Below, piece after piece: positions 3,192 through 17,664 of a stretch of DNA of 38,152 bases (positions are counted from its first letter, which is position 1; each line of letters starts with the position of its first letter). Where the stretch lies: NCBI GenBank assembly GCA_017461225.1, contig JAFTYV010000036.1:1-38152 (forward strand), in the 5' to 3' direction. The notes below the pieces were generated by a model. The model had not been told where the DNA came from. It ran no database searches and was given only the letters and a program-made list of their open reading frames with translations. Source of the DNA: Candidatus Methanomethylophilaceae archaeon (GTDB lineage: Archaea > Thermoplasmatota > Thermoplasmata > Methanomassiliicoccales > Methanomethylophilaceae). The position numbers and the translations under genes were made by a program.

Positions 3192-3208
3192 TTGGACATA
3201 TAATCCAA
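3192..3208. promoter_or_regulatory. 17-bp inverted repeat, putative operator (site 1)
   Basis: TTGGAC-ATATA-ATCCAA, one mismatch from a perfect palindrome. It lies in the 77-base gap between the two hydrolase genes, 43 bases before the second start. The AT core may itself be the TATA box, so a bound regulator would block initiation. Three near-identical sites occur at 12476, 12723 and 15841. The regulator is not identifiable in the window. Confidence 0.6.
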
Positions 3209-3251
3209 GTCTTTATCAGGACACGTTGCATACCATCCGACGGGTGTTGTT

Positions 3252-3812
3252 TTGAAGGCGGATCCGCTGGGAAAGAGGTTGGCCCTGGTCATCATAGATG
3301 TCCAGAGGAAGTTCAGGATAGACACGGAGGATGCGGTCAGGACCCATGACGAGCACGTGGGGAACATCAACGCCCTGTCCCGCATGTTCAGGGATGCCGG
3401 CAGGCCCGTCATCTTCGTGAAGTACATCGGTGGTGATGAGTGCCGCCCCTACGAGGGGACCGACGGGGACGAGTTCTTCCCCGGGATCGAGACCGCCGAT
3501 TCCGATGTGGTCGTGGAGAAGCACCACATGAACTCCTTCAGGGAGTCGGATCTGGCGGGGGCCGTGAGGTCCGCCGGATGCGACGGTGTGCTCCTCGCGG
3601 GCACGGTGACGCAGTACTGCGTCCTGTCCACCTACTACGCGGCGTTCGACGACGACCTCTCCCCGTTCCTGGCGGGAGGGGCCTGCATGTCCACCTCCGA
3701 GGAGACGAACCGTGCCGTCGAGCACATATGCAAGACCCTCGGCCCCGACGATGTCCGCAGGTACCTCGCCGGGGAGCCCATGCCGGGGGCGGAGTTCAGA
3801 CTGAGCTCATGA
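3252..3812 (+). CDS. isochorismatase-like cysteine hydrolase, copy B
   Basis: A 186-residue tandem paralogue of the preceding hydrolase, with the triad at the same positions: D16 (VIIDVQ), K90 (VEKHHMNSF) and C123 (TQYCVLST). The start is TTG at 3252, chosen because the resulting MKADPLGK aligns with MRYDPLGK of copy A and no better in-frame ATG lies near. Unlike copy A it has its own promoter region carrying operator site 1, so it may be regulated with the chelatase and importer genes. The SNMC to TQYC change next to the nucleophile suggests a different substrate from copy A. Its last six bases overlap the end of the convergent CbiZ-like gene. Function beyond the fold is unknown. Confidence 0.87.
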   Translation: MKADPLGKRLALVIIDVQRKFRIDTEDAVRTHDEHVGNINALSRMFRDAGRPVIFVKYIGGDECRPYEGTDGDEFFPGIETADSDVVVEKHHMNSFRESDLAGAVRSAGCDGVLLAGTVTQYCVLSTYYAAFDDDLSPFLAGGACMSTSEETNRAVEHICKTLGPDDVRRYLAGEPMPGAEFRLSS

Positions 3813-4622
3813 GTGCGGACCGGGGAGGTCGTCCACGACCTCCCCGGGCAGTCCGCGCGTCAGTTCCCCGAAGACATCCGCACCCGCATCGCCGGGCACC
3901 AGTCCCCAGCCGACCGCATCGCGCAGGAACGTCAGCGAGGATGCCAGTGGCAGGAGGTGCCCGGGAGGTACGTCCGCGGCACCACGGAGGGCGGGGACAT
4001 GGTCGAACGCATCCTTCTCGACGAGTCCGTTCGCCCTTGCGGATTCGAACAGCGACATCCTCGCGCATCTCCCGATGATCTCACCCATGTACGAGTGCTT
4101 CCCCGTGCCGTGTATGAACACACCCGATCCACGGTCGCGGACCACGGTGATGTCCTGTACGACGGAACCGGAGGACACGCCGGATCCCGGCGACGCCCTG
4201 ACGGTCATGTCCTGCATCACGGTGGTGACGGCCTCGGTGAGGGTGACCGCAGCACGTGCCATGGACGACACGGGCATGTCCGCTCCGATGATCAGGACGA
4301 CGTTGGTCCCGCATCCGGGTGCGGTCCCCGCACGGTCCCCCGCCCTGGAGGTCCCGGACGTCATGTCCGACGAGCAGATGCAGGTCACGGTGTTGCGTCC
4401 CTTGGACAGTGTCGTCACGGAGGTGGATCCGACGGGTGAATGGGGGTCCAGGCGCATCCATCCGTCCCCCGTAGGTCCGGCACCCCCGACCGAGATCCCC
4501 GCGACGGACCCCACGAGTCCCGTACCCGGGGAGGTAGAGAGCGCGTCGAAGCGTCCCGCCTCGAACACGATGTCGATGCGGTCGGTCGTCCGCTCCACGG
4601 TGAAACCGGTGCCCCCTGTCAT
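3807..4622 (-). CDS. CbiZ-like protein (adenosylcobinamide amidohydrolase family), divergent copy
   Basis: A 271-residue protein that I place in the CbiZ family from its layout: an ALSTSPGTGLVGS segment near residue 25 (compare STGFFNGG in its neighbour), a central GCGTNVVLIIGAD strand, an ARAAVTLTEAVTTVMQD helix, and GSGVF followed by HGTGKHSYMGEIIGR. CbiZ cleaves the aminopropanol arm of adenosylcobinamide to adenosylcobyric acid during corrinoid salvage in archaea. The ATG overlaps the upstream cbiZ stop (ATGA), so it is the last gene of the bchI-bchD-cobN-cbiZ operon. It is more divergent than its neighbour, so it may act on another corrinoid or serve as a partner subunit. Family call moderately sure, activity unproven. 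Confidence 0.68.
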   Translation of the reverse strand: MTGGTGFTVERTTDRIDIVFEAGRFDALSTSPGTGLVGSVAGISVGGAGPTGDGWMRLDPHSPVGSTSVTTLSKGRNTVTCICSSDMTSGTSRAGDRAGTAPGCGTNVVLIIGADMPVSSMARAAVTLTEAVTTVMQDMTVRASPGSGVSSGSVVQDITVVRDRGSGVFIHGTGKHSYMGEIIGRCARMSLFESARANGLVEKDAFDHVPALRGAADVPPGHLLPLASSLTFLRDAVGWGLVPGDAGADVFGELTRGLPGEVVDDLPGPHS

Positions 4623-5770
4623 GCCATCAGCCCCCTGGCGGTGTGCTGGATCAGTATGGCCGTCACCAGGCTCATGTGGTGCGCGATGTCCTCGGTCCTC
4701 TCCAGTCTCAGGTCCAGGACGGGATCCGTCCGGATCCCGGCGAGGAGCGCCCCGCCTATGCGGTCCTTGACGAACGAGAGGGCGTCCCCGGCGGGGATGC
4801 ACCCGTTGCGGACCTCGTCGTCGAGATGGGCCGCCAGAAGCGTCATCGCCGTCAGGCGTGAATCACGCCTGAGGATGCCCTCCGCCTCGAGGAGGGACGA
4901 CATGGTGGCCCCGAAACGTATCTCGTCCCGTATGCGGGGCATGTCCACACCCAGCCTCGACAGTGTGACGAACGGGTCGCACTGCGTCTCCGCCGTCATA
5001 CCGGACTGGAGGTCGAACGTGCCGAGGAGGGCCCTCCTGACGCACAGGCACAGCTCCCGTCCGATGTCGGAATCCATGCGCACGGACCCCACGGGTGTCC
5101 CGGACGGGCCGGACCTGCAGACCACGACCACCTGGTCCGTCCCGGAACCGGTGGCGTAGCCCCTGCTGTAGAGGCTCCTCGCCATGAGCTCCTGGAGGAT
5201 GCAGCTCTTGGCCTGCGTCGCCAGGGAAACTGCGTCCAGCAGTGCGCTGTCCGACAGCACGGCGTCGATGACCGCGATCGTGACGATGGTGCCCTCCCTG
5301 TGGTAGTACCTCTCGATCTCGTCGAACCCGGCGGGATCGCCGGCACGTCCGCCGTTGCCCCTCACGCCCCCTGTCATGACCACGGACACGGGGGTCCCGT
5401 CGTCCGCCTCCCCGTTGACCAGGTACGCGTTGTCCATGTTGGCGGCCGTCCCCAGACCCACGGTCCGGGAGGTGTCCAGACCGATCTTCGCTATGCACAT
5501 CGCGGTGCACTCGTCGTGGACCTCCCTGGGCAGACCCATCATCTCCCATTCCACGTCCCCTCCCAGGCTGGTGGTGTTCACCACCGCCTGCGGGGAGTCC
5601 GTGTACCCTCCGTTGAAGAACCCGGTGGACAGGCACCTGAAGCCGCCGTCGGGCATCAGGGCGATCAGGGACCTGCCCTGCCTGTGGAGCGTCACCCCGG
5701 CGCACATGTCGCCGAACCATCTGCGTTCGCCCGGCTCCTCGACAGCGAGTACCTCCCTCCAGTCGAGCAC
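4619..5770 (-). CDS. cbiZ: adenosylcobinamide amidohydrolase CbiZ, with C-terminal extension
   Basis: A 383-residue protein whose first 230 or so residues match CbiZ: STGFFNGGYTDSPQAVVN, then TVGLGTAANMDNA, VSVVMTGGVRGNGGRAGD, ATQAKSCILQELMA and ATGSGTDQVVVV. The family acts in salvage of incomplete corrinoids, removing the aminopropanol side chain so that a new lower ligand can be attached. About 150 further residues follow the CbiZ core and are helical and acidic; I do not recognise them, and they make the protein longer than a bare CbiZ domain. The start GTG at 5770 is preferred because GGGGGTGA sits six bases before it; a GTG at 5779 overlapping the cobN stop is the alternative. Translationally coupled on both sides. 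Confidence 0.8.
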   Translation of the reverse strand: MLDWREVLAVEEPGERRWFGDMCAGVTLHRQGRSLIALMPDGGFRCLSTGFFNGGYTDSPQAVVNTTSLGGDVEWEMMGLPREVHDECTAMCIAKIGLDTSRTVGLGTAANMDNAYLVNGEADDGTPVSVVMTGGVRGNGGRAGDPAGFDEIERYYHREGTIVTIAVIDAVLSDSALLDAVSLATQAKSCILQELMARSLYSRGYATGSGTDQVVVVCRSGPSGTPVGSVRMDSDIGRELCLCVRRALLGTFDLQSGMTAETQCDPFVTLSRLGVDMPRIRDEIRFGATMSSLLEAEGILRRDSRLTAMTLLAAHLDDEVRNGCIPAGDALSFVKDRIGGALLAGIRTDPVLDLRLERTEDIAHHMSLVTAILIQHTARGLMA

Positions 5771-5771
5771 G

Positions 5772-8700
5772 TCACTCACCCCCGGACATGTCCTCGAGGA
5801 GCCCCTCGGTCTCGAGGAAGAGGTCCGTGAGTTCGCGGACGGTGTCCTCGTCGGCATCCCACAGCCCCCTGTGGACCGCCTCGAGCATGTCGTCGATCAT
5901 CTCCCTCAGGGCATCGGGGTTGTTCTCGGCGATCCACTCCCTCATCCCCTCGTCCAGGATGTACATGTCCGTGACGGAGGAGAACATCCAGGGTTCGATG
6001 GAGTCCGATGTGGCGCTCCAGCCCAGCATGTACTCGGTGAGCTTGGAGAGCTCCATGGCGCCCTTGTACCCGTGGCGCTTCAGGCCCTCCGCCCACTTCG
6101 GGTTCAGGACCCTGCTCCTCATGACGTACGCGGTCTCCTCCTCCAGGGTGCGGGTCCTCAGACGGTCCACGTCGGAACTGTCGCCCATGAACGTGACCGG
6201 GGTGTGCCCGCCGTACGTCCTGACGGCGGCGTTCATGCCGCCGAGGCTGTCGTAGTCGTCGTCGATGTCCAGGAGGTCGAACTCCCTGTCGTTGTGGTTC
6301 TTGACCGTGACGTCCAGCGATCCCAGGCGCATCTTGAACGCGAGTGGGACCTTCTCGCCCTTCCACCCACCGCCGTAGGCGTGCGATCCCCAGGTGGCGT
6401 AGGTCTCGGCTATCTGGTCGAGGCTGTCCCACTTCGACGATGCGATCAGGACGGAGACCCCGCAGCCGTGCTGTCCGGGCGGATCCCCGAAGACCCTGAT
6501 CCCGGCGAGGTCGCGTGCCTCCGAGGGCATGAGCCCCTGGTCGATGAACCTCCTGATGTCCTCCTCCAGGTGCTTCCTGTAGTAGTTCTCCTCCTCGGAC
6601 TCGTCCAGTGCCGCCACCATGGCCAGGGCGTCCACGAGCATCTCCGTGAGGTTCGGGAAGGAGTCGCGGAACAAACCGGATATGCGGGGCATGACGTCGA
6701 TCCTCGGACGTCCCAGCTCCTCGAGGGGGATGACCTCCATGCCGGTGACCTTCCCGCCGACGGTGCCCCAGGTGGGTCTCACCCCCAGCAGGGCGAGGAT
6801 GTACGCGACGTCGTCCCCGTAGGTCTTCATGGTGTCCGTGGCCCACACGACGATCCCCACGTTCTCGGGGTACCTGCCGTTCTCCTCCACGTAGCGGGAC
6901 ACCATGTCCTCCGCCATGCGGGAGCCGACCCTCCAGCTGGCCTCCGATGGGATGGCGTCCGGATCGATCGAGTAGATGTTGCGTCCGGTGGGCAGGAGGT
7001 GCGCGTTCCCGCGGGTCGGGGAACCGGACGGCCCCGGGGGAACGTAGCGTCCGTCCAGGCCGACCAGGAGGTTCCCGATCTCGTCCCCCATGGCCATGAT
7101 CCCGGGGAACACGGTCCCGCACACGTACCTGATGGAGCGCTCCATCCCCCCGTCGAGGTCCCCGAAGGTCCCGCGGGCGGCATCCACGCACGCCACCTCG
7201 TCGAACCCTAGTCCGTCCATGGTGTCGATCAGTCCGTTGAACGCCCCGTCGACCCCGTCGAGGATGGAACCGAACGTCGTCCCGGTGGAGGGGTCCACGG
7301 AGGAGGGGGAGTCCAGGAGGGCGTCAAGGTCGTAGCCCATCGCCGTGCACACGCATCCGCGGAGGGACGGGACGTCCCCGTTGCGGAGGCGGCACAGGCT
7401 GTAGACCATCTCCCTGAGGCGCTCCCCCTCCGGGACCTCCCCCAGCACGTGGAGGCCGTCCTTGATCACGGCGTCCTTCAGGTCCGCTATGTAATCGTAG
7501 ATCTCGTCGACGATGGCATCCACGTCTTCGGGGGTGCAGTCGGGTTGGAGCCCGAGCTCTGCGAACATGTCCAGTTCGGCCACCCTCTCTAGGATGCTCT
7601 CGTCCAGGACCCTGCGCTTCGACTGCTGCAGGGTGCTGCGCGAGTTCAGGTACTCCTGCAGGGTCCCCTCCAGGGCCATGAGCTCGTCGTAGTTGCCGGC
7701 CCTCGTCATGGACGGGCACATGTGGCTTATCAGGACGGAGTTCGTCCTGCGCTTGCACTGGACCCCCTCCCCGGGGTCGTCGATGATGTAAGGGTAGATG
7801 TTGGGCATGGTGTCGAGGACCACGTCGGGGTAGCAGTCCGAGGACAGCCCGTTCCCCTTCCCCGGGAGCCACTCCAGCGTCCCATGGGTCCCCATGTGGA
7901 TGATGCAGTCCGCCCCGAACCCGTGCTTCAGCCACCTGTAGTACGCGAGGTACTGGTGCGGCATGACCACGAACGGGTCGTGGTACAGCTTCTCCGCCTG
8001 CTCGTGCTGTCCGCGGTTCGGCTGTATGCCGATGAACACGTTGCCGTCCAGGTACCCGGGGACCAGGAACCCGGAACCGCAGGTCGATATGTCGCCCGGC
8101 GGTTCGCCCCAGCTGACCTCGATGCCCGCCCTCGCCTTCTCCGACAGTCCCGAGTACCACCCCAGGTAGGTCTCCGTGGGTATGACGGTGTGCGACCTGG
8201 ACTCCAGCTCGTCCTCGGGGATCCAGCGCGTGTCGCTGGTGACCCCCTCCATGAGCCTCCCCACGATGGAGTTGCCGTCGGCGGGGATGTCGTCCACCGT
8301 GTACCCGGTGTCCCTCATGGCGATGAGGCACCTCCGGACGCTCTCCAGGGAGTCCAGTCCGGAGGCCCCTCCGATGCGGTCGTTGGTCGGCGGGTACATG
8401 TTCAGGAGGATCGCCACCCTCCTCTCGGACACGGGTTTGCGTCTCAGCTCCGCCCATGCGACGGCAAGGGTGGCTATCCTGTCCACCCTGTCCGGGACCG
8501 AGTCGCTGCGGTAGACCCCGTCCGGATCCCTGTAGTTGAAGGAGGACGGGACGGATATCATCTGCCCGTCGAACTCCGGCCATATGACGGCGCTGCCCAG
8601 CTCCATGGAGCTGAGTCCTATGCCGTCCGCCATCCACCTCTCCACGGGACGGCTCAGGGTCATCGCCTGTATGACCGGGACGTCCAGGTCCTCGAAGAAG

Positions 8701-9557
8701 TTCCTGGGGACGGTGTCCGCGGACACGTTGTTCATGCACACCTGTGAGAAACCGGTGGTGAACACCACGGTGTCCACGATCGGGCGCCCGTCCCTCCGGA
8801 GGTACCTGTCGACGACCTCCCCTATCCCGATGCTCCCGGACAGTTCGTTCGGGGCCGAGGTGAAGAACACGGGGAGGGTGTTGGCACCCAGTTCCTCCAG
8901 CCTGCGTATCAGGTCCACCACGGGCTTGCGCCTGTCCTTCAGCCACGATGTCTGGTGCATCATAACCGCGACGGTGGGTCTGGACGGGTCGAGGGATGAG
9001 ATGTACTCGTCGAACCCCGTGTCCTCCGGCCAGTCCGGATGGAACACGCCCTCCGTGCGGTTGAGCGTGGGTCCGCGGATCCCCACATCGGCACCGGCGA
9101 TGCGGTTCAGGATCCACAGGATCATCGACTCGTGGTTCTCCCTGCCGCCGATCTCCGCGAGGGTGCGCATGAGGAGCCAGTCCTCGTCCGTGTGCCTGAA
9201 CATGTGCCTGTGGTCGTCGTTGAGCTCCTCCAGGGCGCCGTCGTAGAGGAAGTCGATGGAACCCCTCCCCACGACATCCATCATCCTGTCCCATTTCCTG
9301 AAGTACGACTGGTCGCCGTGGAGCTTGGCGATCACCAGGTCCGCCTCGCGGACCTCGTGGAGGAACCCCACGAACCCCTCCTCGTCGGAATCGAGTTCCT
9401 CGGAATCGGCGCAGACGAGCCTCATCGGGACCGGGATCCCGGCCATCTCCGAGAACGCCCTGCCGATGAGTGCGGCGTCCCTGTTCATAACGCTGAGGTA
9501 GACGACCCTGACGGGCTCGCGTCCGTCGGAGGGTCCGTTGACATGGATGTTCACCAT
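5772..9557 (-). CDS. cobN: CobN-type chelatase large subunit
   Basis: A 1261-residue protein of full CobN/BchH length. The diagnostic central motif HMGTHGTLEWLPGK lies at 554-567, with H554, H558 and E562 as likely metal or substrate ligands. Other CobN blocks are GFSQVCMNN (269-277), LLNMYPPTNDRIGGASGLD (384-402) and VWATDTMKTYG near 945. CobN inserts cobalt into hydrogenobyrinate diamide in the aerobic B12 route together with AAA+ subunits; relatives insert magnesium, and archaeal paralogues are of unproven specificity. The BchI- and BchD-like partners lie directly upstream (four-base gap to BchD), and CbiZ directly downstream. This favours a corrin substrate, but nickel or other metals and other tetrapyrroles cannot be excluded. 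A second CobN is encoded at 3-980. Confidence 0.93.
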   Translation of the reverse strand: MVNIHVNGPSDGREPVRVVYLSVMNRDAALIGRAFSEMAGIPVPMRLVCADSEELDSDEEGFVGFLHEVREADLVIAKLHGDQSYFRKWDRMMDVVGRGSIDFLYDGALEELNDDHRHMFRHTDEDWLLMRTLAEIGGRENHESMILWILNRIAGADVGIRGPTLNRTEGVFHPDWPEDTGFDEYISSLDPSRPTVAVMMHQTSWLKDRRKPVVDLIRRLEELGANTLPVFFTSAPNELSGSIGIGEVVDRYLRRDGRPIVDTVVFTTGFSQVCMNNVSADTVPRNFFEDLDVPVIQAMTLSRPVERWMADGIGLSSMELGSAVIWPEFDGQMISVPSSFNYRDPDGVYRSDSVPDRVDRIATLAVAWAELRRKPVSERRVAILLNMYPPTNDRIGGASGLDSLESVRRCLIAMRDTGYTVDDIPADGNSIVGRLMEGVTSDTRWIPEDELESRSHTVIPTETYLGWYSGLSEKARAGIEVSWGEPPGDISTCGSGFLVPGYLDGNVFIGIQPNRGQHEQAEKLYHDPFVVMPHQYLAYYRWLKHGFGADCIIHMGTHGTLEWLPGKGNGLSSDCYPDVVLDTMPNIYPYIIDDPGEGVQCKRRTNSVLISHMCPSMTRAGNYDELMALEGTLQEYLNSRSTLQQSKRRVLDESILERVAELDMFAELGLQPDCTPEDVDAIVDEIYDYIADLKDAVIKDGLHVLGEVPEGERLREMVYSLCRLRNGDVPSLRGCVCTAMGYDLDALLDSPSSVDPSTGTTFGSILDGVDGAFNGLIDTMDGLGFDEVACVDAARGTFGDLDGGMERSIRYVCGTVFPGIMAMGDEIGNLLVGLDGRYVPPGPSGSPTRGNAHLLPTGRNIYSIDPDAIPSEASWRVGSRMAEDMVSRYVEENGRYPENVGIVVWATDTMKTYGDDVAYILALLGVRPTWGTVGGKVTGMEVIPLEELGRPRIDVMPRISGLFRDSFPNLTEMLVDALAMVAALDESEEENYYRKHLEEDIRRFIDQGLMPSEARDLAGIRVFGDPPGQHGCGVSVLIASSKWDSLDQIAETYATWGSHAYGGGWKGEKVPLAFKMRLGSLDVTVKNHNDREFDLLDIDDDYDSLGGMNAAVRTYGGHTPVTFMGDSSDVDRLRTRTLEEETAYVMRSRVLNPKWAEGLKRHGYKGAMELSKLTEYMLGWSATSDSIEPWMFSSVTDMYILDEGMREWIAENNPDALREMIDDMLEAVHRGLWDADEDTVRELTDLFLETEGLLEDMSGGE

Positions 9558-9561
9558 AGAA

Positions 9562-11409
9562 TCACTCCCATATGACGCCCCGCACCGACCTGGTCAGGCG
9601 GTCCGCGTCGAGTTCCTCCAGACGGAGGTATGTGCCCCCGAGGGCGTTGCAGAGGTCGAGTGCCAGTCCGAGTCCGTTCCTCCCGGTCTCGGTGTCGACC
9701 ACGATGAAGCGCGTTTCAGTGGATGAGAGGGCGGAGGCCGTCGAGAGCATCTCCTCCAACGGTCTCCTGCCGGGGTCGACGGACACGTTGCAGCGTCCAT
9801 CGGACAGTATGACCATGACGGGTTCTGCATCGGTGCTCCCCCTGGACGAGAGGATCCCGTGTCCGCACATCAGTCCCCGTGTCAGCGGGGTCCTGCCGCC
9901 CGTGGGGATCGCCTGCAGCGCCCTGTAGGCGGTGGCGGTGCTCTTGGTCAGGGGCAGGACCTCCTCCGCGGAGTCCTTCCTGAAGACCGCCATGCCTATG
10001 CGGTCGCGTCTGCGGTACGCGTCCTCCAGTATGGAGAGGACGGCGCCCTTGACCGCGACCATGCGTTTCTGGGCCCCCAGGGACCCGCTGCCGTCCACCA
10101 GGAACAGGACGTCCTTCCCGCTCCTCCTGGTGCGGACCTTCTCGCGGAGGTCCCCGCGTTCGAGGACGAGTGCGAGGCCGTCGTGGACCCTGTAGGGCTG
10201 GTACGGCGCCGCCATCCTGATGCTCGGGACCAGCGCTATGTCGCGTGGGCGCCCGCGCGGCATGCGGTAGCCGACGCATCTCCCGGAGGGGTCCTCGGAC
10301 TCCACCGGTGCGTGCCTGCCGGAGCGGCCGTGTCTGTAGCCGTCGTCGGCGAGGGACAGGTAGTCTATCAGGGACAGGCGGTCCCCTATGGAGAACACCT
10401 CCTCCCCCGACGGGGGTCCCCCGGGTGGAGGGGGCGGGACGTCCGTGTCGGGCAGGTCGCCGCCATCGTCCGTGCGTCCGGGGTCCGTCTCGGACCCGTT
10501 CCCGTCGTCGCGTGGGCGGTCGTCCTCCGGTTGCTCGTCGGACCTCTCCGGCGGATCCCGGGGTTCAGGTTCCTCCCTCCGCATGTCGTCGAGGTCGTTG
10601 CGCCTGTGCTCGAGGCTTACGGACACCGCGTCGCGGAGGTCCTCCAGGTCGACGGTCGCATGTCCCTTCAGCGCCGCGACGGCACGTGCGGCGTTCATGA
10701 CCGCCACATCGCCCCTGTGCCCCATGACCCCCAGGTCCCGGCAGGTCTCGGTGACCGCGCGGTAGTAGCCCTCCGGTATGTGGACGAACCTGCACCTGCC
10801 CCTTGCGTCGGCGATGGTCCGGCACAGCCCATCATCCTCCCCGGTGACGTCCGTCCCGCGGAGGTTGGAGACCAGGGCCTCGACCCTGGAGTCCTCGTCG
10901 CCGAGTGTGTGCGTGAAGGCGCACAGGTCGAACCTGTCGAGGATGTTGTCCGGCAGGGCGCCCTCCGACGGGTCCATCGTCGCCACGAGGGTGTGGTCGC
11001 AGGGGTGCACCTCCGAGATCCCCTCCCTCTCCACCACGTTCACACGGTTCTCCGTGACGTCCAGTATGTGGTGCAGGACATGGGGTTGCAGCAGGTTGGC
11101 GTTCTCCACGAGCAGGATGTTCCCATGGGACCTCCTGAGTATGCTGGTGCCCCCGCGGCTGCGCCCGGTCCCGATGGTGTCCTCGATGTCCAGGCCCCCG
11201 AATATGCGGTCCTCGGTCGCACCGAGGGGGAGTCTCACGACCTCCCTCCCGCCGGAGATCCCCCCGACGGATGATGCGAGTGCGGACTTCCCGGTCCCAC
11301 GGGGACCGCAGATGAGGACGGAGCGTATGCTGTCGGAGCACAGGGCGCATCTGAGCGCCAGCTTGGCGGTGTCGTTGCCGACGATGCCGGAGAAACCCGT
11401 CATCGTCAT
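9562..11409 (-). CDS. BchD/ChlD-like chelatase subunit (AAA+ plus von Willebrand A domain)
   Basis: A 615-residue protein with three parts. An AAA+ domain spans about 1-265, with Walker A GPRGTGKS (35-42) and a degenerate Walker B (NILLVENAN, 97-105) in which the usual aspartate-glutamate pair is missing. A proline- and acid-rich linker follows (275-340, with a PPPPP run). A C-terminal vWA domain begins near 432 with an intact MIDAS motif D439-G-S441-G-S443. This is the architecture of the D subunit of Mg-chelatase and related chelatases: weak or no ATPase, bridging the BchI ring to the CobN/BchH subunit. The start is ATG at 11409, overlapping the bchI stop (ATGA); a second in-frame ATG lies two codons on. 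Operon position supports the role. Confidence 0.9.
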   Translation of the reverse strand: MTMTGFSGIVGNDTAKLALRCALCSDSIRSVLICGPRGTGKSALASSVGGISGGREVVRLPLGATEDRIFGGLDIEDTIGTGRSRGGTSILRRSHGNILLVENANLLQPHVLHHILDVTENRVNVVEREGISEVHPCDHTLVATMDPSEGALPDNILDRFDLCAFTHTLGDEDSRVEALVSNLRGTDVTGEDDGLCRTIADARGRCRFVHIPEGYYRAVTETCRDLGVMGHRGDVAVMNAARAVAALKGHATVDLEDLRDAVSVSLEHRRNDLDDMRREEPEPRDPPERSDEQPEDDRPRDDGNGSETDPGRTDDGGDLPDTDVPPPPPGGPPSGEEVFSIGDRLSLIDYLSLADDGYRHGRSGRHAPVESEDPSGRCVGYRMPRGRPRDIALVPSIRMAAPYQPYRVHDGLALVLERGDLREKVRTRRSGKDVLFLVDGSGSLGAQKRMVAVKGAVLSILEDAYRRRDRIGMAVFRKDSAEEVLPLTKSTATAYRALQAIPTGGRTPLTRGLMCGHGILSSRGSTDAEPVMVILSDGRCNVSVDPGRRPLEEMLSTASALSSTETRFIVVDTETGRNGLGLALDLCNALGGTYLRLEELDADRLTRSVRGVIWE

Positions 11410-12443
11410 CCGACCCGGAACTGCTCCCTCGCCCATGTGCCGAGCTCGTCCAGGTCGAGTTTCGATTCCTGGAACGGGTTGCGCCTCATGCGGTGGGGCA
11501 TGACTAGGTTGGACACGTGGACGACATCCGAGGGCAGGACCTCGATCCTCCCCTCGAACGCGGCGTGCGCGACCGCGGCCTTCACCAGGGTCAGATCCGC
11601 GCGGTGCCCGTCCACGTCCAGGTGGAGGGGGATCCTCACGGCGGCGCGGAGCACGTCGGGTCCCGGTTCGATCTCGGACACGAGTGAACGTGCATCGCGG
11701 ATCCTGTCCCTCAGCTCCTCCTGGGATCCCCTGTAGTCCTCGGAGAAGCCCTCGGGGTCCCTCTCGAACTCCATGCGTCTGAGCAGGATCTCCGTCCTGC
11801 GGTCCTCGTCCTTCTCCGATACCACGTCGACCATGAGGCCGAACCTGTCCAGGAGCTGGGGCCTCAGGTCCCCCTCCTCGGGGTTCATGGTGCCGATGAG
11901 GATGAACCTGGACGGGTGGCTGTAGGACACACCCTCCCTCTCCACGAAGTTGACGCCCATCGCCGCGGCATCGAGCATCAGGTCGACTATGTGGTCGTCG
12001 AGGAGGTTGATCTCGTCGACGTACAGGATGTTGCCGTTGGCCTTCGCCAGGACCCCGGGTTCGAACCTCTTCCGCCCGGTCGTGATGGCGTGCTCGATGT
12101 CCAACGTCCCCGCCACCCTGTCCTCGGTGGAGCTGAGGGGAAGTTCCACGACCCTCATGGGCACGGTCTCCATCTCCAGGGAGCCGTCCGAGGCCCTCTC
12201 GCGGCACTCGGGGCACATGTTGCCGTCGTCGCCCCAGGCACAGGAGCACGGGCATCCGCGGACCACGTCCCTGTCCGGGAGGAGTCCCGCCAGGGCCCTC
12301 ACCGCTGTGGATTTGGCGGTCCCCTTCTCCCCGCGGATCAGAACGCCACCTATCAGGGGGTTCACCGTGTTCAGGATCAGGGCCTCCTTCATGGGCTCCT
12401 GGCCCACTATGGCTGTGAACGGGTATACCGGTCTGTCTCTCAC
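11406..12443 (-). CDS. BchI/ChlI-like chelatase AAA+ ATPase subunit
   Basis: A 345-residue AAA+ ATPase of the Mg-chelatase I-subunit family, of normal length. Walker A is GEKGTAKS (38-45), Walker B ILYVDE (139-144), and sensor-1 asparagine lies in GTMNPEEG. A cysteine group C64, C66, C68, C77, C80 sits in the insert that often carries cysteines in this family. It forms the ATP-driven ring that powers metal insertion by CobN. The start is GTG at 12443. It is the first gene of a five-gene minus-strand operon with overlaps or gaps of at most four bases. A TATA-like AATATAAAA (about 12477-12469) gives a nearly leaderless mRNA, and operator site 2 overlaps it. Confidence 0.93.
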   Translation of the reverse strand: MRDRPVYPFTAIVGQEPMKEALILNTVNPLIGGVLIRGEKGTAKSTAVRALAGLLPDRDVVRGCPCSCAWGDDGNMCPECRERASDGSLEMETVPMRVVELPLSSTEDRVAGTLDIEHAITTGRKRFEPGVLAKANGNILYVDEINLLDDHIVDLMLDAAAMGVNFVEREGVSYSHPSRFILIGTMNPEEGDLRPQLLDRFGLMVDVVSEKDEDRRTEILLRRMEFERDPEGFSEDYRGSQEELRDRIRDARSLVSEIEPGPDVLRAAVRIPLHLDVDGHRADLTLVKAAVAHAAFEGRIEVLPSDVVHVSNLVMPHRMRRNPFQESKLDLDELGTWAREQFRVG

Positions 12444-12475
12444 GATCTCACCTTCTGGGTTTTGTGAGTTTTATA

Positions 12476-12492
12476 TTGGAATATATATCCAA
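12476..12492. promoter_or_regulatory. 17-bp inverted repeat, putative operator (site 2) at the bchI-bchD-cobN-cbiZ promoter
   Basis: TTGGAATATATATCCAA, with TTGGA/TCCAA arms and an AT-only centre. Read on the minus strand it abuts and slightly overlaps the TATA-like AATATAAAA, with the GTG start of the bchI-like gene 33 bases away. That position would let a bound protein block TBP/TFB. It is one of four matching sites in the window. The 309-base divergent gap 12444-12752 otherwise holds only promoter elements; I see no gene or known riboswitch there. Confidence 0.65.
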
Positions 12493-12694
12493 CAGTTGGA
12501 GGATAAAACTGACCGCATAATCCTGCGTAAAACGGATGCATCTGGCGCGGAACCGGGAGAATCGTGTTGTTTCAAACTCAGTATTCCCGTGTTCATCTGA
12601 CAGGTATCGTTCCCATCCGTTGTGGTCGATAGTTAAAGGCTCTGGGAATTGGATGATTCTGTACGGTTTTTACATAACTTCGGGGCGGATTAAG

Positions 12695-12703
12695 TTAATA
12701 TAA
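12695..12703 (+). promoter_or_regulatory. TATA box of the FecB-like importer operon
   Basis: TTAATATAA within an AT-rich stretch, 50-58 bases before the ATG at 12753. An archaeal start site about 25 bases downstream would fall near 12725, inside operator site 3. Confidence 0.5.
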
Positions 12704-12722
12704 CCCTGGAGTGGATGATTAG

Positions 12723-12739
12723 TTGGATAATACATCCAA
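12723..12739. promoter_or_regulatory. 17-bp inverted repeat, putative operator (site 3) at the importer promoter
   Basis: TTGGAT-AATAC-ATCCAA, with perfect 6-bp arms; the best copy of the four. It overlaps the predicted transcription start and ends 14 bases before the ATG of the FecB-like gene, with GGTGA between as ribosome binding site. A repressor here would block the importer operon. The position relative to TATA differs from site 2 but is repression-compatible in both. Confidence 0.68.
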
Positions 12740-12752
12740 TAGGTGAAATGCC

Positions 12753-13838
12753 ATGGAAAAGAATCAGACGATAGTCATCGGCGTCGTCGCCGTCCTCCTC
12801 ATCGCAGCGGTGGGTGTCGGTTGGTACGTCATGTCAGGTGACGATGATGTGGATCAACCGGCGGAGATCACCGATGCCATGGGCAATGTGGTGAAACTCG
12901 ACGGTGTACCTGAGAGGATAGTCAGCACCTCAGCCGTGCCGACCGAGATACTTTGCGATCTCGGATTCAGGGCGAACCTGGTCGGAGCGACCAGCAATGC
13001 AGGCATCTATGATGTCTTCAGCGATGTGTACGGAATCGATTTGGAATTCGATTATCCTGCGACGATAGAGGCCGATATGGCGAGTGGAAAGGTCGCCGAC
13101 ATCGGTAAGTGGTCATGGGCCGTAGAGGATGTTCTCGCAGCCAACCCTGAACTCGTGATCATGGATGAGGATCAGCTCTCCGACATCAACAAGATGAAGG
13201 ATATCCAGAAGGTCGGTGTCGATGTCATCGTTCTGGATGCGGATTCCGGATTCGATGTGATCAAATCCAACTACATGATGCTCGGCAAGGCACTGGGTGC
13301 CGTAGACAGAGCCGAGGACATATGCTCCGAGATCGACGAGGCACTGAAGGCTATCGACGACAGGTTCGACGAGAGTGCGAACGCGTCCGTGACGTTCGCT
13401 GCGGTCTGCTACATGCCCGGATACATCTACGGTTACGGTGATGGCGGAATGGTCCAGGCCATGAAGAGCGCGGGATATACCAACGCATTCAAGACCTCGG
13501 ACTCCTTCTTCTCCATATCCTATGAGGACATAGCGGCCGCTGACCCTGACGTCATAGTGTTCGAGGACATGGGATCCATGCTTGATTGGGCACCCATCAT
13601 CGAACAGTGGAAGGCGGATCCCGTGATGGGGTCCATCGATGCCATCAAGAACGGTGATTTCTACTGTCTCGAGTACGGCCCGTTCCGTGCCAGCGGTTAC
13701 TCCACAGTGCACATGGTCGAAGGATACGCCCTGTTGCCGTCCCTGATCCAGGGTGCGGTCAACGACTCCGGGCTCCCCAACATCGTCGATGACAAGGAGT
13801 GGAGGGAGAACATAGAGTGGCTCAAGGAGGCCGCCTAA
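12753..13838 (+). CDS. FecB/BtuF-family substrate-binding protein, membrane anchored
   Basis: A 361-residue periplasmic-binding-type lipoprotein substitute. Residues 7-28 form one N-terminal membrane anchor, with no lipobox cysteine, followed by a polar acidic linker and a Fe/B12-type helical-backbone binding domain from about 38: ITDAMGNVVKLDGVPERIVSTS is the usual opening, and AAADPDVIVFED and WKADPVMGSIDAIKNGDFY are family blocks. Relatives bind B12, haem or iron-siderophores outside the cell. Divergent CbiZ/CobN genes sharing the same operator favour a corrinoid or other metal-tetrapyrrole ligand, which is inference. First gene of a three-gene importer operon. Codon use is less G-rich at third positions than the chelatase genes. 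Confidence 0.88.
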   Translation: MEKNQTIVIGVVAVLLIAAVGVGWYVMSGDDDVDQPAEITDAMGNVVKLDGVPERIVSTSAVPTEILCDLGFRANLVGATSNAGIYDVFSDVYGIDLEFDYPATIEADMASGKVADIGKWSWAVEDVLAANPELVIMDEDQLSDINKMKDIQKVGVDVIVLDADSGFDVIKSNYMMLGKALGAVDRAEDICSEIDEALKAIDDRFDESANASVTFAAVCYMPGYIYGYGDGGMVQAMKSAGYTNAFKTSDSFFSISYEDIAAADPDVIVFEDMGSMLDWAPIIEQWKADPVMGSIDAIKNGDFYCLEYGPFRASGYSTVHMVEGYALLPSLIQGAVNDSGLPNIVDDKEWRENIEWLKEAA

Positions 13839-13845
13839 ACACAAG

Positions 13846-13874
13846 GGGGGTGACCCCCACCCCAACGGGGTTTT
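13846..13874 (+). terminator. two small hairpins between the binding-protein and permease genes
   Basis: In the 39-base gap, GGGGG-TGA-CCCCC (13846-13858) is followed by CCCC-AAC-GGGG-TTTT (13860-13874), only three bases before the permease ATG. They could slow or partly end transcription, protect the binding-protein mRNA end, or mask the next ribosome site, so that the binding protein is made in excess. The strand and short T-run fit a weak intra-operon terminator. Confidence 0.45.
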
Positions 13875-13877
13875 CCA

Positions 13878-14960
13878 ATGACGGATGACGAGGCCAGACT
13901 CCGTGAGGAGGTCATGGGGAGGAACGTCGGCATCAGGACGATCCGGAAGAGGTCCACAGTGATCATAATAGCGGGGATCGTCGCCATAATGGTGACCTAC
14001 GTGTATTCCCTGACCATGGGGTCGTATCCGGTCTCCTTCACAGAATCCTTCCATCAGTTGGTGGAGATCGTGATGACGGGCGGCAACCCCGAGGAGATGA
14101 GTGGGAAGGTGATATACCATCTCAGGATGCCCCGTTCCCTGCTCGTCATAATGGTCGGTGCGGGACTCGCAGTTGCCGGAGCGGTCATGCAGGCGTTGAT
14201 CCACAACCCCCTGGTCGATCCGTATGTGACCGGTGTGTCGTCGGGGGCATCGTTCGCCGTGATCCTGGTCTCGCTCGGCACAGCAGTCGCGACATCCGTC
14301 GCCTCCATCTGGGTCATGCCGGTCGCCGCGGTCATAGGGGCCGTCCTCGCATTCATACTGACCATGACTGTCGCCGAGTCCGCGGGCGGGAAGGCGATGA
14401 GCTACGTCCTCGGTGGAACGATCATAGGTATGGGGCTGAGTGCCGGGACGACGTTGATCCTGTCCACCAACGCGGACGACATGCACAAGATCACGGATTG
14501 GATGTTCGGGAGCTTCGCCAACACATCGTGGGAGGAGGCGATCCTCTGTACCGTGTGCATATCGGTCATCCTGGTCATCATCATGGTTCATGCACGCAAA
14601 CTGAACATGATGCTGCTCGGGGAGGATCAGGCGAGGTACCTCGGACTGGATGCAAGGAGGTTCAAGAGGAACATGCTGATCCTGGTTGCGGTCCTGACCG
14701 CCTTCTGCGTCGCATTCTGCGGTGTCATAGGATTCGTCGGACTGATCGTGCCGCATCTGTGCAGGATGATCATCGGAGGGGACAACAGGGTGCTCCTGCC
14801 CACGAGCATCGTCGTCGGATCCGTCGTGCTCTTGGTCGCAGATGTGTTCTGCAAGAGTTTCACCGTGGGGGAACTGCCGATCGGGGCTATAATCTCCGTA
14901 ATCGGTGTGCCGTTCTTCATCTACCTCATGGTCAAGGAGGGTAAACGCTATGCACTCTGA
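13878..14960 (+). CDS. FecCD/BtuC-family importer permease
   Basis: A 360-residue membrane protein with about ten hydrophobic segments, the FecCD norm. Key blocks are HLRMPRSLLVIMVGAGLAVA, then MQALIHNPLVDPYVTGVSSGA, and the coupling region GVIGFVGLIVPHLCRMIIG close to the last spans. It forms the channel of an ABC importer for B12, haem or siderophore-like ligands, as a homodimer with the ATPase that follows. A 38-residue cytoplasmic N-terminus precedes the first span. The ATG at 13878 follows the hairpins just upstream. The end overlaps the ATPase start by 11 bases. Confidence 0.92.
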   Translation: MTDDEARLREEVMGRNVGIRTIRKRSTVIIIAGIVAIMVTYVYSLTMGSYPVSFTESFHQLVEIVMTGGNPEEMSGKVIYHLRMPRSLLVIMVGAGLAVAGAVMQALIHNPLVDPYVTGVSSGASFAVILVSLGTAVATSVASIWVMPVAAVIGAVLAFILTMTVAESAGGKAMSYVLGGTIIGMGLSAGTTLILSTNADDMHKITDWMFGSFANTSWEEAILCTVCISVILVIIMVHARKLNMMLLGEDQARYLGLDARRFKRNMLILVAVLTAFCVAFCGVIGFVGLIVPHLCRMIIGGDNRVLLPTSIVVGSVVLLVADVFCKSFTVGELPIGAIISVIGVPFFIYLMVKEGKRYAL

Positions 14961-15762
14961 TGCAGCCATGCTCGAAGTGTCCGAGATGGCGTTCAGCTAT
15001 TCCGACGAGGGCACTCTGAAGAACATAGATTTCGAGATAATGCCCGGTGAGTTCGTCGCCCTGATGGGCCCCAACGGTTCCGGGAAGACCACGATGATGC
15101 GCTGCATCAACAAGATCCACAAACCTTCCGGTGGGACCATCGAGATCGACTCCGAGGACATAATGGAACTGTCCATGGGTGAGATCGCCAGGATATGCAC
15201 CACAGTCCCTGCCGACACGTCCGTCGACTTCTCGCTCTCCGTCAGGGACTACGTCGCCCTCGGCCGTTCCCCGTTCATCAAGACGATATGGTGGGAGGAC
15301 GAGCACGACGAGGAGCTGATCAACGAGGCCATGTGGAGGATGGGCATAGCCCACTACGCCAACAGGAGGCTCCACGAGCTGAGCAGCGGCGAGAGGGCCC
15401 GCGTCCTCCTCGCCAAGGGCCTGGTCCAGACCCCGAAGGTACTCCTGGTCGACGAGCCCAGTGCTCACCTGGACATCAAGTTCAAGGTCCAGATCATGGA
15501 GATCCTCCGCAACCTCAGCAGGCAGGGCCTGACCGTGCTGATCGCATCGCACGACATCAACCTCCTCACGAGGTTCTGCGACAGGATACTGCTCCTGTCC
15601 AGGGGACACATCCTGAGGTACGGCACCCCCGAGGAGGTCGTCACGGAGGAGTCCATACAGGAGGTCTTCGACATACGCGTGAAGGTCGTCACGGAGGAGG
15701 GCACGGTGTACGTGCTCCCGACGGGCTCCACCCGGTTCGGGGTCGACGGTCCGCTGGACTGA
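14950..15762 (+). CDS. FecE/BtuD-family importer ATP-binding protein
   Basis: A 270-residue ABC ATPase. Walker A is GPNGSGKT (40-47), the signature LSSGERAR (144-151, serine in place of the first signature glycine), Walker B VLLVDEP (164-170), and the switch histidine lies in IASHD. At the Q-loop, where relatives usually read a proline-glutamine pair, the text is TTVPADTSVDF near 84-94, so the conserved glutamine seems replaced by alanine. The ATG at 14950 overlaps the permease end and has AAGGAGGG about 8 bases upstream. It completes the importer. C-terminal residues 200-270 carry the usual helical extension. Confidence 0.92.
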   Translation: MHSDAAMLEVSEMAFSYSDEGTLKNIDFEIMPGEFVALMGPNGSGKTTMMRCINKIHKPSGGTIEIDSEDIMELSMGEIARICTTVPADTSVDFSLSVRDYVALGRSPFIKTIWWEDEHDEELINEAMWRMGIAHYANRRLHELSSGERARVLLAKGLVQTPKVLLVDEPSAHLDIKFKVQIMEILRNLSRQGLTVLIASHDINLLTRFCDRILLLSRGHILRYGTPEEVVTEESIQEVFDIRVKVVTEEGTVYVLPTGSTRFGVDGPLD

Positions 15763-15803
15763 GATGGCAACATCCCCGGACACAAACACCATTCCCCCTT
15801 TTT

Positions 15804-15813
15804 CTATATTATA
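15804..15813 (+). promoter_or_regulatory. TATA-like element before the second ABC-2 exporter
   Basis: CTATATTATA in an AT-rich run following a C/T stretch. A start site about 25 bases on would fall just before operator site 4 at 15841. Confidence 0.4.
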
Positions 15814-15840
15814 ATATCAATAAAGGGGAGGGGGACATTA

Positions 15841-15857
15841 TTGGATGTATATGCCAA
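15841..15857. promoter_or_regulatory. 17-bp inverted repeat, putative operator (site 4) before the second ABC-2 exporter
   Basis: TTGGAT-GTATA-TGCCAA; one arm departs at two positions from ATCCAA. It lies 28-40 bases before the possible starts of the ATPase gene, and close to the expected transcription start if the TATA at 15804 is used. Confidence 0.55.
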
Positions 15858-15896: not shown

Positions 15897-16763
15897 ATGT
15901 GTGACGGCGTTCCGGACGACATAGTCGAGGTGAGGGACCTGGTGGTCCGTTTCGGTGACTTCACGGCGGTGGACGGCATATCGTTCGATGTCCGCCGCGG
16001 GGAGATATTCGGTTTCCTGGGGCCCAACGGCGCCGGGAAGACCACGACCATACGCACCGTCACCACGATCCAGAAACCGACCTCCGGGAGCGTGACCATA
16101 GACGGTCACGACACGGAGGACGACTACATCGCCGCACGCTCGTGCATAGGCATCGCGCAGCAGCACATCAGCCTGGACAAGGACCTGACCGTCCGCCAGA
16201 ACCTGAGGCACCATGCGATGCTCCACAAGATCCCCCGCTCCGAGATGACGGAACGCATCGAGTCGACCGCGTCGATCCTCGAGCTCGGCGACTACATGGA
16301 CCGCAGGATAGAGAACCTCTCCGGGGGATGGAAGCGCAAGGCATCCATCATCTGCTCCATAATCCACGAGCCGTCCGTCCTGTTCCTGGACGAGCCCACC
16401 GCCGGACTGGACACCCGTTCCCGTCACATGCTGTGGGACCTGGTACGCATGCTGAACCGCAGGGGGACCACGATATTCCTCACCACCCACTACATCGAGG
16501 AGGCGGAGTCCCTGTGCGACAGGGTGGCCATCATCAACCGCGGCCGTCTGGTGGCCATGGGCACCGTCGACGAGCTGAGGGCCATGGTGGGGAACGTGAC
16601 CGTGGACGTGACGGACCACGAGGGGAGGGTGACCAAGCACCACTTCCCGGACCGCGAGGCCGCACGTGGGTACACCGAGGGTCTGGACTTCTTCTTCAAC
16701 GTCCGCAGGACGACGCTCGAGGACGTGTTCCTGGAGCTCACCGGCGAGGGGGGACTTGCATGA
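15897..16763 (+). CDS. ABC-2 type exporter, ATP-binding protein, second copy
   Basis: A 288-residue ATPase, paralogous to the one at 977-1858. Walker A GPNGAGKT near 38, Q-loop IAQQH, signature NLSGGWKRK (again tryptophan), Walker B VLFLDEPTAGLDT, and switch histidine LTTHY are all intact. The C-terminal extension differs most between the two copies, which may reflect a different partner or cargo. The start could be ATG at 15897 or GTG at 15885; neither has a clear ribosome site. Operator site 4 just upstream ties this gene to the corrinoid-block regulon, and the stop overlaps the permease ATG (ATGA). Substrate unknown. Confidence 0.9.
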   Translation: MCDGVPDDIVEVRDLVVRFGDFTAVDGISFDVRRGEIFGFLGPNGAGKTTTIRTVTTIQKPTSGSVTIDGHDTEDDYIAARSCIGIAQQHISLDKDLTVRQNLRHHAMLHKIPRSEMTERIESTASILELGDYMDRRIENLSGGWKRKASIICSIIHEPSVLFLDEPTAGLDTRSRHMLWDLVRMLNRRGTTIFLTTHYIEEAESLCDRVAIINRGRLVAMGTVDELRAMVGNVTVDVTDHEGRVTKHHFPDREAARGYTEGLDFFFNVRRTTLEDVFLELTGEGGLA

Positions 16764-17518
16764 CGAACCCCCTGACGATCCTGGACGAGACGTACCGCGT
16801 GGCGTGGGGGGACCTGTGCTACCTCAGGGGGAACGTGGTGGAGGTCCTGCTGACCGGTCTGGTCGGACCCATCCTGTACCTCCTGGCGTTCGGATACGGA
16901 CTCGGCGGGAGCATGGAGGGCGGTTCCTCGGAGTACCTGGCGTTCATCATCCCCGGCATCATCTCCCTGGCAACGCTGTCGGGGACGTTCAGCACCGTCG
17001 CCATGAAGATCCTGGTCCAGAGGCTGTTCTACATGAGCTTCGACGAGCTCCTGCTCTGCCCGGTGCACATAACCTCGGTCATACTGGGGAAGACCCTCTC
17101 CGGCGTGATACGCGCCGTCGTGTGCTGCACAGTGATAATGGGTCTCGGATGCATCCTCTCCCCGTCGGTGGAGTTCTCACTGGGCGCGATGGGTGTGGTG
17201 GTCCTCGCGAGCCTGACGTTCTCCCTCTTCGGGCTCCTCGCCGGCATGGTCACGAACAAGACGCAGAAGCTGTCCCTGTTCACAAGCATAGTCATCGTCC
17301 CGATGACCTTCCTCTGCGGGACCCTGTTCAACGTGTCCGCGTTGCCGGCGTTCGCCGCGTACGTGGTGTACCTCCTCCCGCTGACCCATGTCAGCCAGCT
17401 GGTGAGGGGGTTCATGCTCGACACGGGCATCCCGTTGGATTCGGTGGCCATCCTGCTGGCGTACACGGCGCTGTTCTTCGGCCTGTGCTACTGGATGATC
17501 AAGACACACAGGTGCTGA
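16760..17518 (+). CDS. ABC-2 type exporter, membrane permease, second copy
   Basis: A 252-residue permease with about six spans and the motifs ILYLLAFGYGLG, FDELLLC and PMTFLCGTLF shared with the copy at 1855-2601. Four-base overlap with its ATPase. Probably a homodimeric exporter. It ends 146 bases before the unrelated ATPase gene, and the gap holds tandem repeats. Confidence 0.91.
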   Translation: MTNPLTILDETYRVAWGDLCYLRGNVVEVLLTGLVGPILYLLAFGYGLGGSMEGGSSEYLAFIIPGIISLATLSGTFSTVAMKILVQRLFYMSFDELLLCPVHITSVILGKTLSGVIRAVVCCTVIMGLGCILSPSVEFSLGAMGVVVLASLTFSLFGLLAGMVTNKTQKLSLFTSIVIVPMTFLCGTLFNVSALPAFAAYVVYLLPLTHVSQLVRGFMLDTGIPLDSVAILLAYTALFFGLCYWMIKTHRC

Positions 17519-17554
17519 CCGTGGTGCTGATGCCGGTTTCTGATAACGGTGTTT

Positions 17555-17632
17555 ACAACCAATTCTGGTTGTAAAAATTATTACATTCATTTTTGGTTGT
17601 AAAAATTATTACATTCAAATTTGGTTGTAAAA
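17555..17632. repeat. 28-bp tandem repeats and an inverted repeat before the DUF234 ATPase
   Basis: TGGTTGT starts at 17566, 17594 and 17622, a period of 28. Units one and two share 24 leading bases (TGGTTGTAAAAATTATTACA and on); the third keeps the first 11. Each full unit holds TGTAA-N6-TTACA, an inverted repeat. The first unit also forms ACAACCA-ATTC-TGGTTGT (17555-17572). It resembles a multi-site operator or promoter array rather than a mobile element. Confidence 0.7.
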
Positions 17633-17664
17633 TATTTGAACACGGAGATGGATGCCGTACCATC

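Follow-up and report, generated by a model that had tools for sequence, protein, structure and literature searches.

The 38,152-base stretch analysed here (the window) is the whole of contig C5 in the 1.52-Mb genome of a Candidatus Methanomethylophilaceae archaeon of the order Methanomassiliicoccales (G000; G, C, L, f and g numbers are labels for genomes, contigs, loci, families and genera). It carries four copies of the 17-bp palindrome TTGGAT-N5-ATCCAA, which is confirmed as a real, conserved operator, that is, a predicted binding site. The operator is associated across archaeal phyla with genes for proteins that contain the domain DUF4443. It is probably read by a dimeric winged-helix regulator of this kind that resembles PH0730 of Pyrococcus horikoshii, and that would have begun as a local switch and now serve an expanded corrinoid, cobalt and tetrapyrrole regulon in Methanomassiliicoccales. 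The initial annotation, made from the window, had proposed that a single transcription factor, sensing a corrinoid, cobalt, iron or haem, governs a new regulon. The wider analysis supports that reading; direct binding, repression, a corrinoid ligand and concerted change of the four operons are inferred.

All four copies lie between genes at the positions first annotated and share the consensus with 0–2 mismatches. A matrix was built from 34 sites, in which the TTGGAT half-site is near-invariant; a matrix trained on this genome returned exactly these four positions in the window at ≥15 bits (20.4 to 28.8 bits). The five-base AT-rich spacer described initially stood as to its fixed length, with the refinement that the middle is not free but W-rich (A or T) and symmetric. 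The weakest copy, at 15841, is supported because its sequence, read on the other strand as TTGGCATATACATCCAA, recurs at C6:51 and at L023:6164. The window alone held 15 matches at ≤3 mismatches compared to 10.4 expected, a marginal excess of the sort that chance likeness among AT-rich palindromes near promoters might leave. However, that explanation was already refuted by the counts against controls in the genome, the order and several phyla, and its probability is negligible. Genome-wide, 19 exact copies were found compared to none for the reversed pattern, and 87 compared to 13 at ≤2 mismatches. Regions of G000 totalling 233 kb (88% coding by our own gene calls) were fetched, in which 37 of the 39 sites scoring ≥19 bits were wholly intergenic, and the motif is rarer within genes than between them; the reversed sequence of the same regions gave no match at the matrix threshold. 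As these regions were picked for holding sites, the intergenic fraction and not the site density is the evidence. The sites lie a median of 40 bp 5′ of start codons (66 tandem sites).

The motif is kept throughout the order. At least one exact copy was present in 128 of 147 Methanomassiliicoccales genomes compared to 2 of 147 for the reversed control, and nearly all genomes of the rest of the class had 0 or 1 copy. Genomes of family f16, outside the order (for example L249 and L251), have one exact site, more than 1.5 kb from any DUF4443 gene; close to the L251 site is a gene for a DUF6580 membrane protein. Within the order, the motif is retained 5′ of the same gene types, including the cobN, cbiZ, FecBCD and ABC-2 (ATP-binding cassette) genes at which it had been predicted to cluster. 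On intergenic position and on conservation, the proposal withstood the refuting conditions that the initial annotation had set. The arms of the palindrome can pair as RNA and some sites are close to start codons, as would be expected of a hairpin, a riboswitch part or a terminator. Nevertheless, the 39 strong sites included no paired, compensating changes and 20 sites with unpaired changes, which argues that the sites behave as DNA. Moreover, sites in divergent promoters serve both directions and the middle is constrained in sequence. A search against Rfam at gathering thresholds of 94 kb (the window, L016, L017 and L018) returned only a tRNA and no match to a cobalamin riboswitch. An RNA element is very improbable.

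The lead to a regulator came from deep relatives and outgroups with few sites, which often have a site directly beside a small gene for a CggR-type winged helix joined to DUF4443. As DUF4443 genes occur in 144 of the 147 order genomes, in all 74 of high quality and also in genomes without exact sites, their presence or absence within the order is uninformative. An exact or near site about 20–330 bp from a DUF4443 gene was found in six genomes of the order, which represent three families, and in eight genomes outside it. Genus g17 seemed motif-free, yet at the same place G004 has TTGGATGTATCATCCCA and G005 has the symmetric TGGGATATATCATCCCA. A DUF4443 profile scan of named public genomes yielded 80 loci. 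Twelve of them, from Hadesarchaea, Hadarchaeum and Hodarchaeaceae, have an exact site 1.1–1.3 kb from the DUF4443 gene, and exact sites also accompany this gene in two loci from Nitrososphaeria, one from Micrarchaeota and one from Sysuiplasma. When all 6-mer palindromes with spacers of 0–10 bases were counted without bias in 52 loci outside the order, TTGGAT-N5-ATCCAA ranked first: it lay ≤2 kb from the DUF4443 gene in 16 of the 52 loci and nowhere else in 732 kb. Only one palindrome that does not overlap it exceeded four loci. The gene-adjacent site is the sole exact copy in ten whole genomes of Hadarchaeota, Nitrososphaeria and other Thermoplasmatota, and a Micrarchaeota genome has two exact copies. 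Since many lineages are close kin and the Sysuiplasma genome is the same as G196, the independent units number about four phyla and not 16 loci. Overall the association of operator and DUF4443 genes across phyla is shown. Separately, the palindrome GACGAT-N1-ATCGTC recurs ≤2 kb from the DUF4443 gene in loci of Thermococcales and in some of Nitrososphaerota type (L287, L288, L289, L295, L296, L298 and L299), where it may be coding sequence.

The candidate gene of G000 (G000:C1:23319-23903; L265:2820-3404, minus strand) lies directly after metK on contig C1, in agreement with the initial observation that no regulator gene is visible in the window. The metK neighbourhood is common to the site-bearing loci of outgroup Thermoplasmatota. 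Its product of 194 amino acids (aa) begins with a CggR-type winged helix and ends in a DUF4443 domain (PF14544 at G000:C1:23325-23615, E=2.6e-32, above the family cut-off). Homologues in the order match the winged helix of CggR/PH0730 type (PF21715 and PF22167), and the G000 protein aligns with them. The structural model of the close homologue L358 (predicted local distance difference test score 92) matches PH0730 (2P8T) over its full length and also the CggR DNA-binding domain. All of 36 homologues keep a GEGS-x-R sequence in the recognition helix and, within DUF4443, the arginine of a QRD motif, and DNA binding by the modelled protein is plausible. Part of the modelled C-terminal domain also aligns with bacterial aspartyl-tRNA synthetases over about 100 columns, perhaps with their insertion domain. 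In the tree, the short DUF4443 proteins of the order form one fully supported clade, with weak deeper branches.

Among characterized folds, PH0730, a DUF4443 protein to which no function is assigned, has the same order of winged helix and DUF4443 (profile E=8.8e-20); the model superposes on it over 186 columns with a template modelling score of 0.74 at about 26% identity. As Thermococcales loci are without the TTGGAT motif, the operator and perhaps the target of PH0730 differ. CggR of Bacillus subtilis, of the SorC family, shares the winged-helix type (PF21715; 7oyk, 8r3g), and arginines of its DNA-binding domain contact guanines of its operator (PMC11229326). However, CggR has a sugar-phosphate-binding effector domain and sits as a tetramer on a two-part operator, whereas the candidate has a DUF4443 effector domain and a single 17-bp palindrome. 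Membership of the SorC/CggR family was rejected for the candidate, in which the C-terminal domain is DUF4443 with no SorC effector domain and the fold match to CggR covers the DNA-binding domain only.

The operator could instead be read by a different protein, either a DUF4443 paralogue of about 320 aa or a further factor. The paralogue is common in the order and has almost the same recognition helix, and the factors considered were selected candidates rather than a genome-wide inventory of transcription factors. Nevertheless, the genes that adjoin sites encode the short form in G001, G002, G006, G125 and the outgroups, and each of three other candidates was set aside; a different reader is improbable. 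Fur gave no match in G000; the listed members of the G000 genus have no full-length Fur, which occurs only in part of the order. In relatives (L040, L074, L077, L080 and L173) a Fur-family gene stands in an operon with CbiM, and the TTGGAT operator occurs there only in part of the order. DtxR was rejected because its own operon in G000 has no site and some site-bearing genomes, several of them incomplete, have no DtxR; absence of DtxR tracks absence of the motif weakly. The promoter of the DtxR-FeoA/FeoB operon (L028:1727-1835, G000) contains TTAGGT repeats, to which the iron regulator itself may bind. The third candidate, encoded at L028:6589-6984 in G000, is a small protein in which two zinc ribbons precede a helix-turn-helix (HTH)-like C-terminal part. 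An exact operator lies 11 bp upstream of the gene and is kept in many genomes of the genus. The protein is not universal and is more likely a target.

The gene content of the regulon is read as serving the synthesis of corrinoids, the uptake of cobalt and corrinoids, and tetrapyrrole chemistry. By Pfam comparison, the genes at sites in G000 include those for three CobN-type chelatases, ChlI, ChlD, the two CbiZ proteins of the window operon, CbiK and CbiX, and sites also serve a divergent pair that encodes a CbiL-like tetrapyrrole methylase and CbiD. Three NifH-NifD fusion proteins, which have nitrogenase-like partners, are also under sites, as are many importers of FecBCD type and ABC exporters. 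In relatives, sites lie 5′ of Fur-CbiM and CobQ- or CbiA-like genes, of a gene whose product has a CobT-type phosphoribosyltransferase domain (Pfam, one copy run), of genes resembling CbiX and CobO, and of putative CbiT and precorrin-2 dehydrogenase genes read from sequence alone. The NifH-NifD fusions under the operator, which have NifE-like partners (L017:15-2168, L018:9160-11286 and L029:6504-8600, G000), are nearest in their NifH part to CfbC of F430 synthesis, under its cut-off. FecB-like binding proteins with dockerin-like domains (L025:7439-8698, L026:2970-4268 and L027:2422-3750, G000) occur as several near-copies per genome, mostly under the operator. The gene for a methyltransferase fused to a C-terminal ArsR-type HTH (L020:5871-7025, G000) and a binding-protein gene point away from each other on either side of an operator copy, and relatives of the fusion adjoin sites in other genomes.

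Outside the order, the genes next to the operator point in the same direction. In Nitrososphaeria the site is 5′ of genes for the S-component of an energy-coupling factor (ECF) transporter and a DUF4430 protein; in Hadarchaeota it precedes genes for a small membrane protein and a DUF4430 protein; and in Micrarchaeota DUF4430 and alpha/alpha-toroid genes lie on both sides of the regulator. In Thermoplasmatota the operator serves a beta-propeller gene with ECF genes behind it, and the single member tested also has a DUF4430 protein. DUF4430 is taken here to belong with the transcobalamin C-domain. A phmmer search of one DUF4430 protein against the PDB returned nothing useful.

The same operator and DUF4443 protein might respond to iron or haem, with FecBCD importers, CobN-like chelatases and nitrogenase-like reductases scavenging haem or siderophore iron and the corrinoid genes as a side branch. 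Many FecBCD-type importers and CobN paralogues are present in the G000 regulon, and the FecB protein of the window weakly resembles iron- and haem-binding proteins, although its NCBIfam matches are far under the cut-offs and its substrate is not assignable. In contrast, the DtxR-FeoA/FeoB iron operon of G000 is without the operator, and the targets shared across the order and with other phyla are cobalamin, cobalt and ECF/DUF4430 genes. An iron or haem signal is unlikely, and a corrinoid is preferred because of the DUF4430/ECF operons outside the order and the cobalamin genes within it.

A dimeric DUF4443 regulator that senses a corrinoid could act as follows. Each subunit would contact a single TTGGAT half-site. 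The centres of the half-sites are 11 bp apart, or one turn of DNA, and this spacing, the palindrome and the winged helix would suit a dimer bound to a single face of the double helix. The regulator would probably repress when corrinoid is ample and release when it is scarce. Positions such as the median site location are where archaeal repressors usually act. Its ancestral role, as seen in Hadarchaeota, Nitrososphaeria and several Thermoplasmatota, may have been control of one neighbouring operon, most likely for a corrinoid importer; such operons typically combine ECF-type uptake genes with partners of the DUF4430 (transcobalamin-like) or beta-propeller kind. In Methanomassiliicoccales the operator would have multiplied into a genome-wide regulon that includes the four window sites. 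The fuller history, in which DUF4443 is an ancient corrinoid sensor, and one regulator and operator shared by Hadarchaeota, Thermoproteota, Micrarchaeota and Thermoplasmatota went from a local switch for transcobalamin-like uptake to a global regulon that takes in importers, chelatases and nitrogenase-like reductases, is tentative and falls a little below an even chance.

Several observations weigh against this interpretation. The near-identical recognition helix of the longer paralogue would allow it to be the reader; G000 has no site beside its own DUF4443 gene; and the DUF4443 loci of Thermococcales and Altiarchaeota are without the TTGGAT motif. The position of TATA boxes relative to the sites followed no clear pattern, so repression is treated here as probable only. 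The FecBCD, NifH-NifD and ABC exporter targets in G000 are not corrinoid-specific by sequence, and 36 site-adjoining genes in relatives have no assignment by comparison. Finally, the DUF4430 profile matched the C-terminal part of transcobalamin-1 weakly (E=0.009) and gave a better match to an annotated metal-binding protein.

Cofactor-responsive winged-helix regulators are a known kind. RbkR and ThiR are archaeal proteins in which a winged helix is joined to a small cofactor-related domain, and they control genes for vitamin uptake or synthesis. Their effector domains are riboflavin-kinase-like and ThiN-like, respectively, and not DUF4443, and RbkR was only a low-ranking fold match. The operators of NrpR (GGAA-N6-TTCC) and MsvR (TTCGTA-type) are likewise short palindromes in methanogen promoters, but differ in half-sites, spacing and targets. 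The matrix gives GGAT-N5-ATCC, in keeping with the initial statement that the motif does not match NrpR, for which the consensus comes from that annotation and general knowledge. Rodionov and co-workers reportedly described in 2003 a CBL-box, a palindromic site 5′ of archaeal cobalamin genes which was proposed for a hypothetical B12 regulator. TTGGAT-N5-ATCCAA may or may not be that sequence, which limits any claim to priority. A search of the available literature found no paper on DUF4443 or on a published TTGGAT-N5-ATCCAA motif.

Operator copies and adjoining genes in the window; site-to-start distances are based on our own gene calls.
Feature	Position	Strand	Evidence and context
Operator copy 1, TTGGACATATAATCCAA	3192..3208	.	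1 mismatch, 24.5 bits; 44 bp 5′ of isochorismatase-family hydrolase start
Operator copy 2, TTGGAATATATATCCAA	12476..12492	.	1 mismatch, 25.7 bits; 69 bp 5′ of bchI (minus-strand bchI-bchD-cobN-cbiZ-cbiZ operon)
Operator copy 3, TTGGATAATACATCCAA	12723..12739	.	Exact, 28.8 bits; 14 bp 5′ of fecB (FecBCD-type importer)
Operator copy 4, TTGGATGTATATGCCAA	15841..15857	.	2 mismatches, 20.4 bits; 40 bp 5′ of second ABC-2 exporter
Isochorismatase-family hydrolase, target of copy 1	3252..3812	+	PF00857, E=1.6e-27
CbiZ-like adenosylcobinamide amidohydrolase, operon end	3807..4622	-	PF01955, E=2e-12
CbiZ adenosylcobinamide amidohydrolase	4619..5770	-	PF01955, E=3.4e-38
CobN-type chelatase large subunit	5772..9557	-	PF02514, 1197.8 bits; TIGR02257, 906.8 bits (over cut-off of 822)
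ChlD/BchD-like AAA+VWA chelatase subunit	9562..11409	-	PF17863, PF13519, PF07728
ChlI/BchI-like AAA chelatase subunit, first gene after copy 2	11406..12407	-	PF17863, PF07728, PF01078
FecB-type substrate-binding protein, first gene after copy 3	12753..13838	+	PF01497, E=4e-23
FecCD-type permease	13878..14960	+	PF01032, E=1.6e-82
FecE-type ATPase	14968..15762	+	Operon position and sequence motifs (no Pfam search)
ABC-2 exporter ATPase, first gene after copy 4	15897..16763	+	PF00005; DrrA-like, below cut-off
ABC-2 exporter membrane subunit	16760..17518	+	Position and resemblance to other ABC-2 membrane genes

Beyond the last of these genes, three AT-rich direct repeats around TTTGGTTGTAAAAATTATTACATTCA occupy window positions 17550-17640, just 5′ of an ATPase gene (about 17665-19101), as the signature of a separate regulatory or mobile element.

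To our knowledge, archaea are mostly without cobalamin riboswitches and the control of archaeal B12 genes is largely open. What is new here is the operator, its link with DUF4443, its conservation across phyla and its expansion in Methanomassiliicoccales. The analysis puts a name to a protein family whose structure is already solved (2P8T) and supplies an exact operator together with dozens of target genes, which opens binding and ligand to direct test. The dockerin-bearing binding proteins, the NifH-NifD fusions and the CobN paralogues under the operator thereby gain a functional context. As Methanomassiliicoccales, many of which live in animal guts, use methyl groups that are moved by corrinoid proteins, corrinoid supply bears on their methane production.

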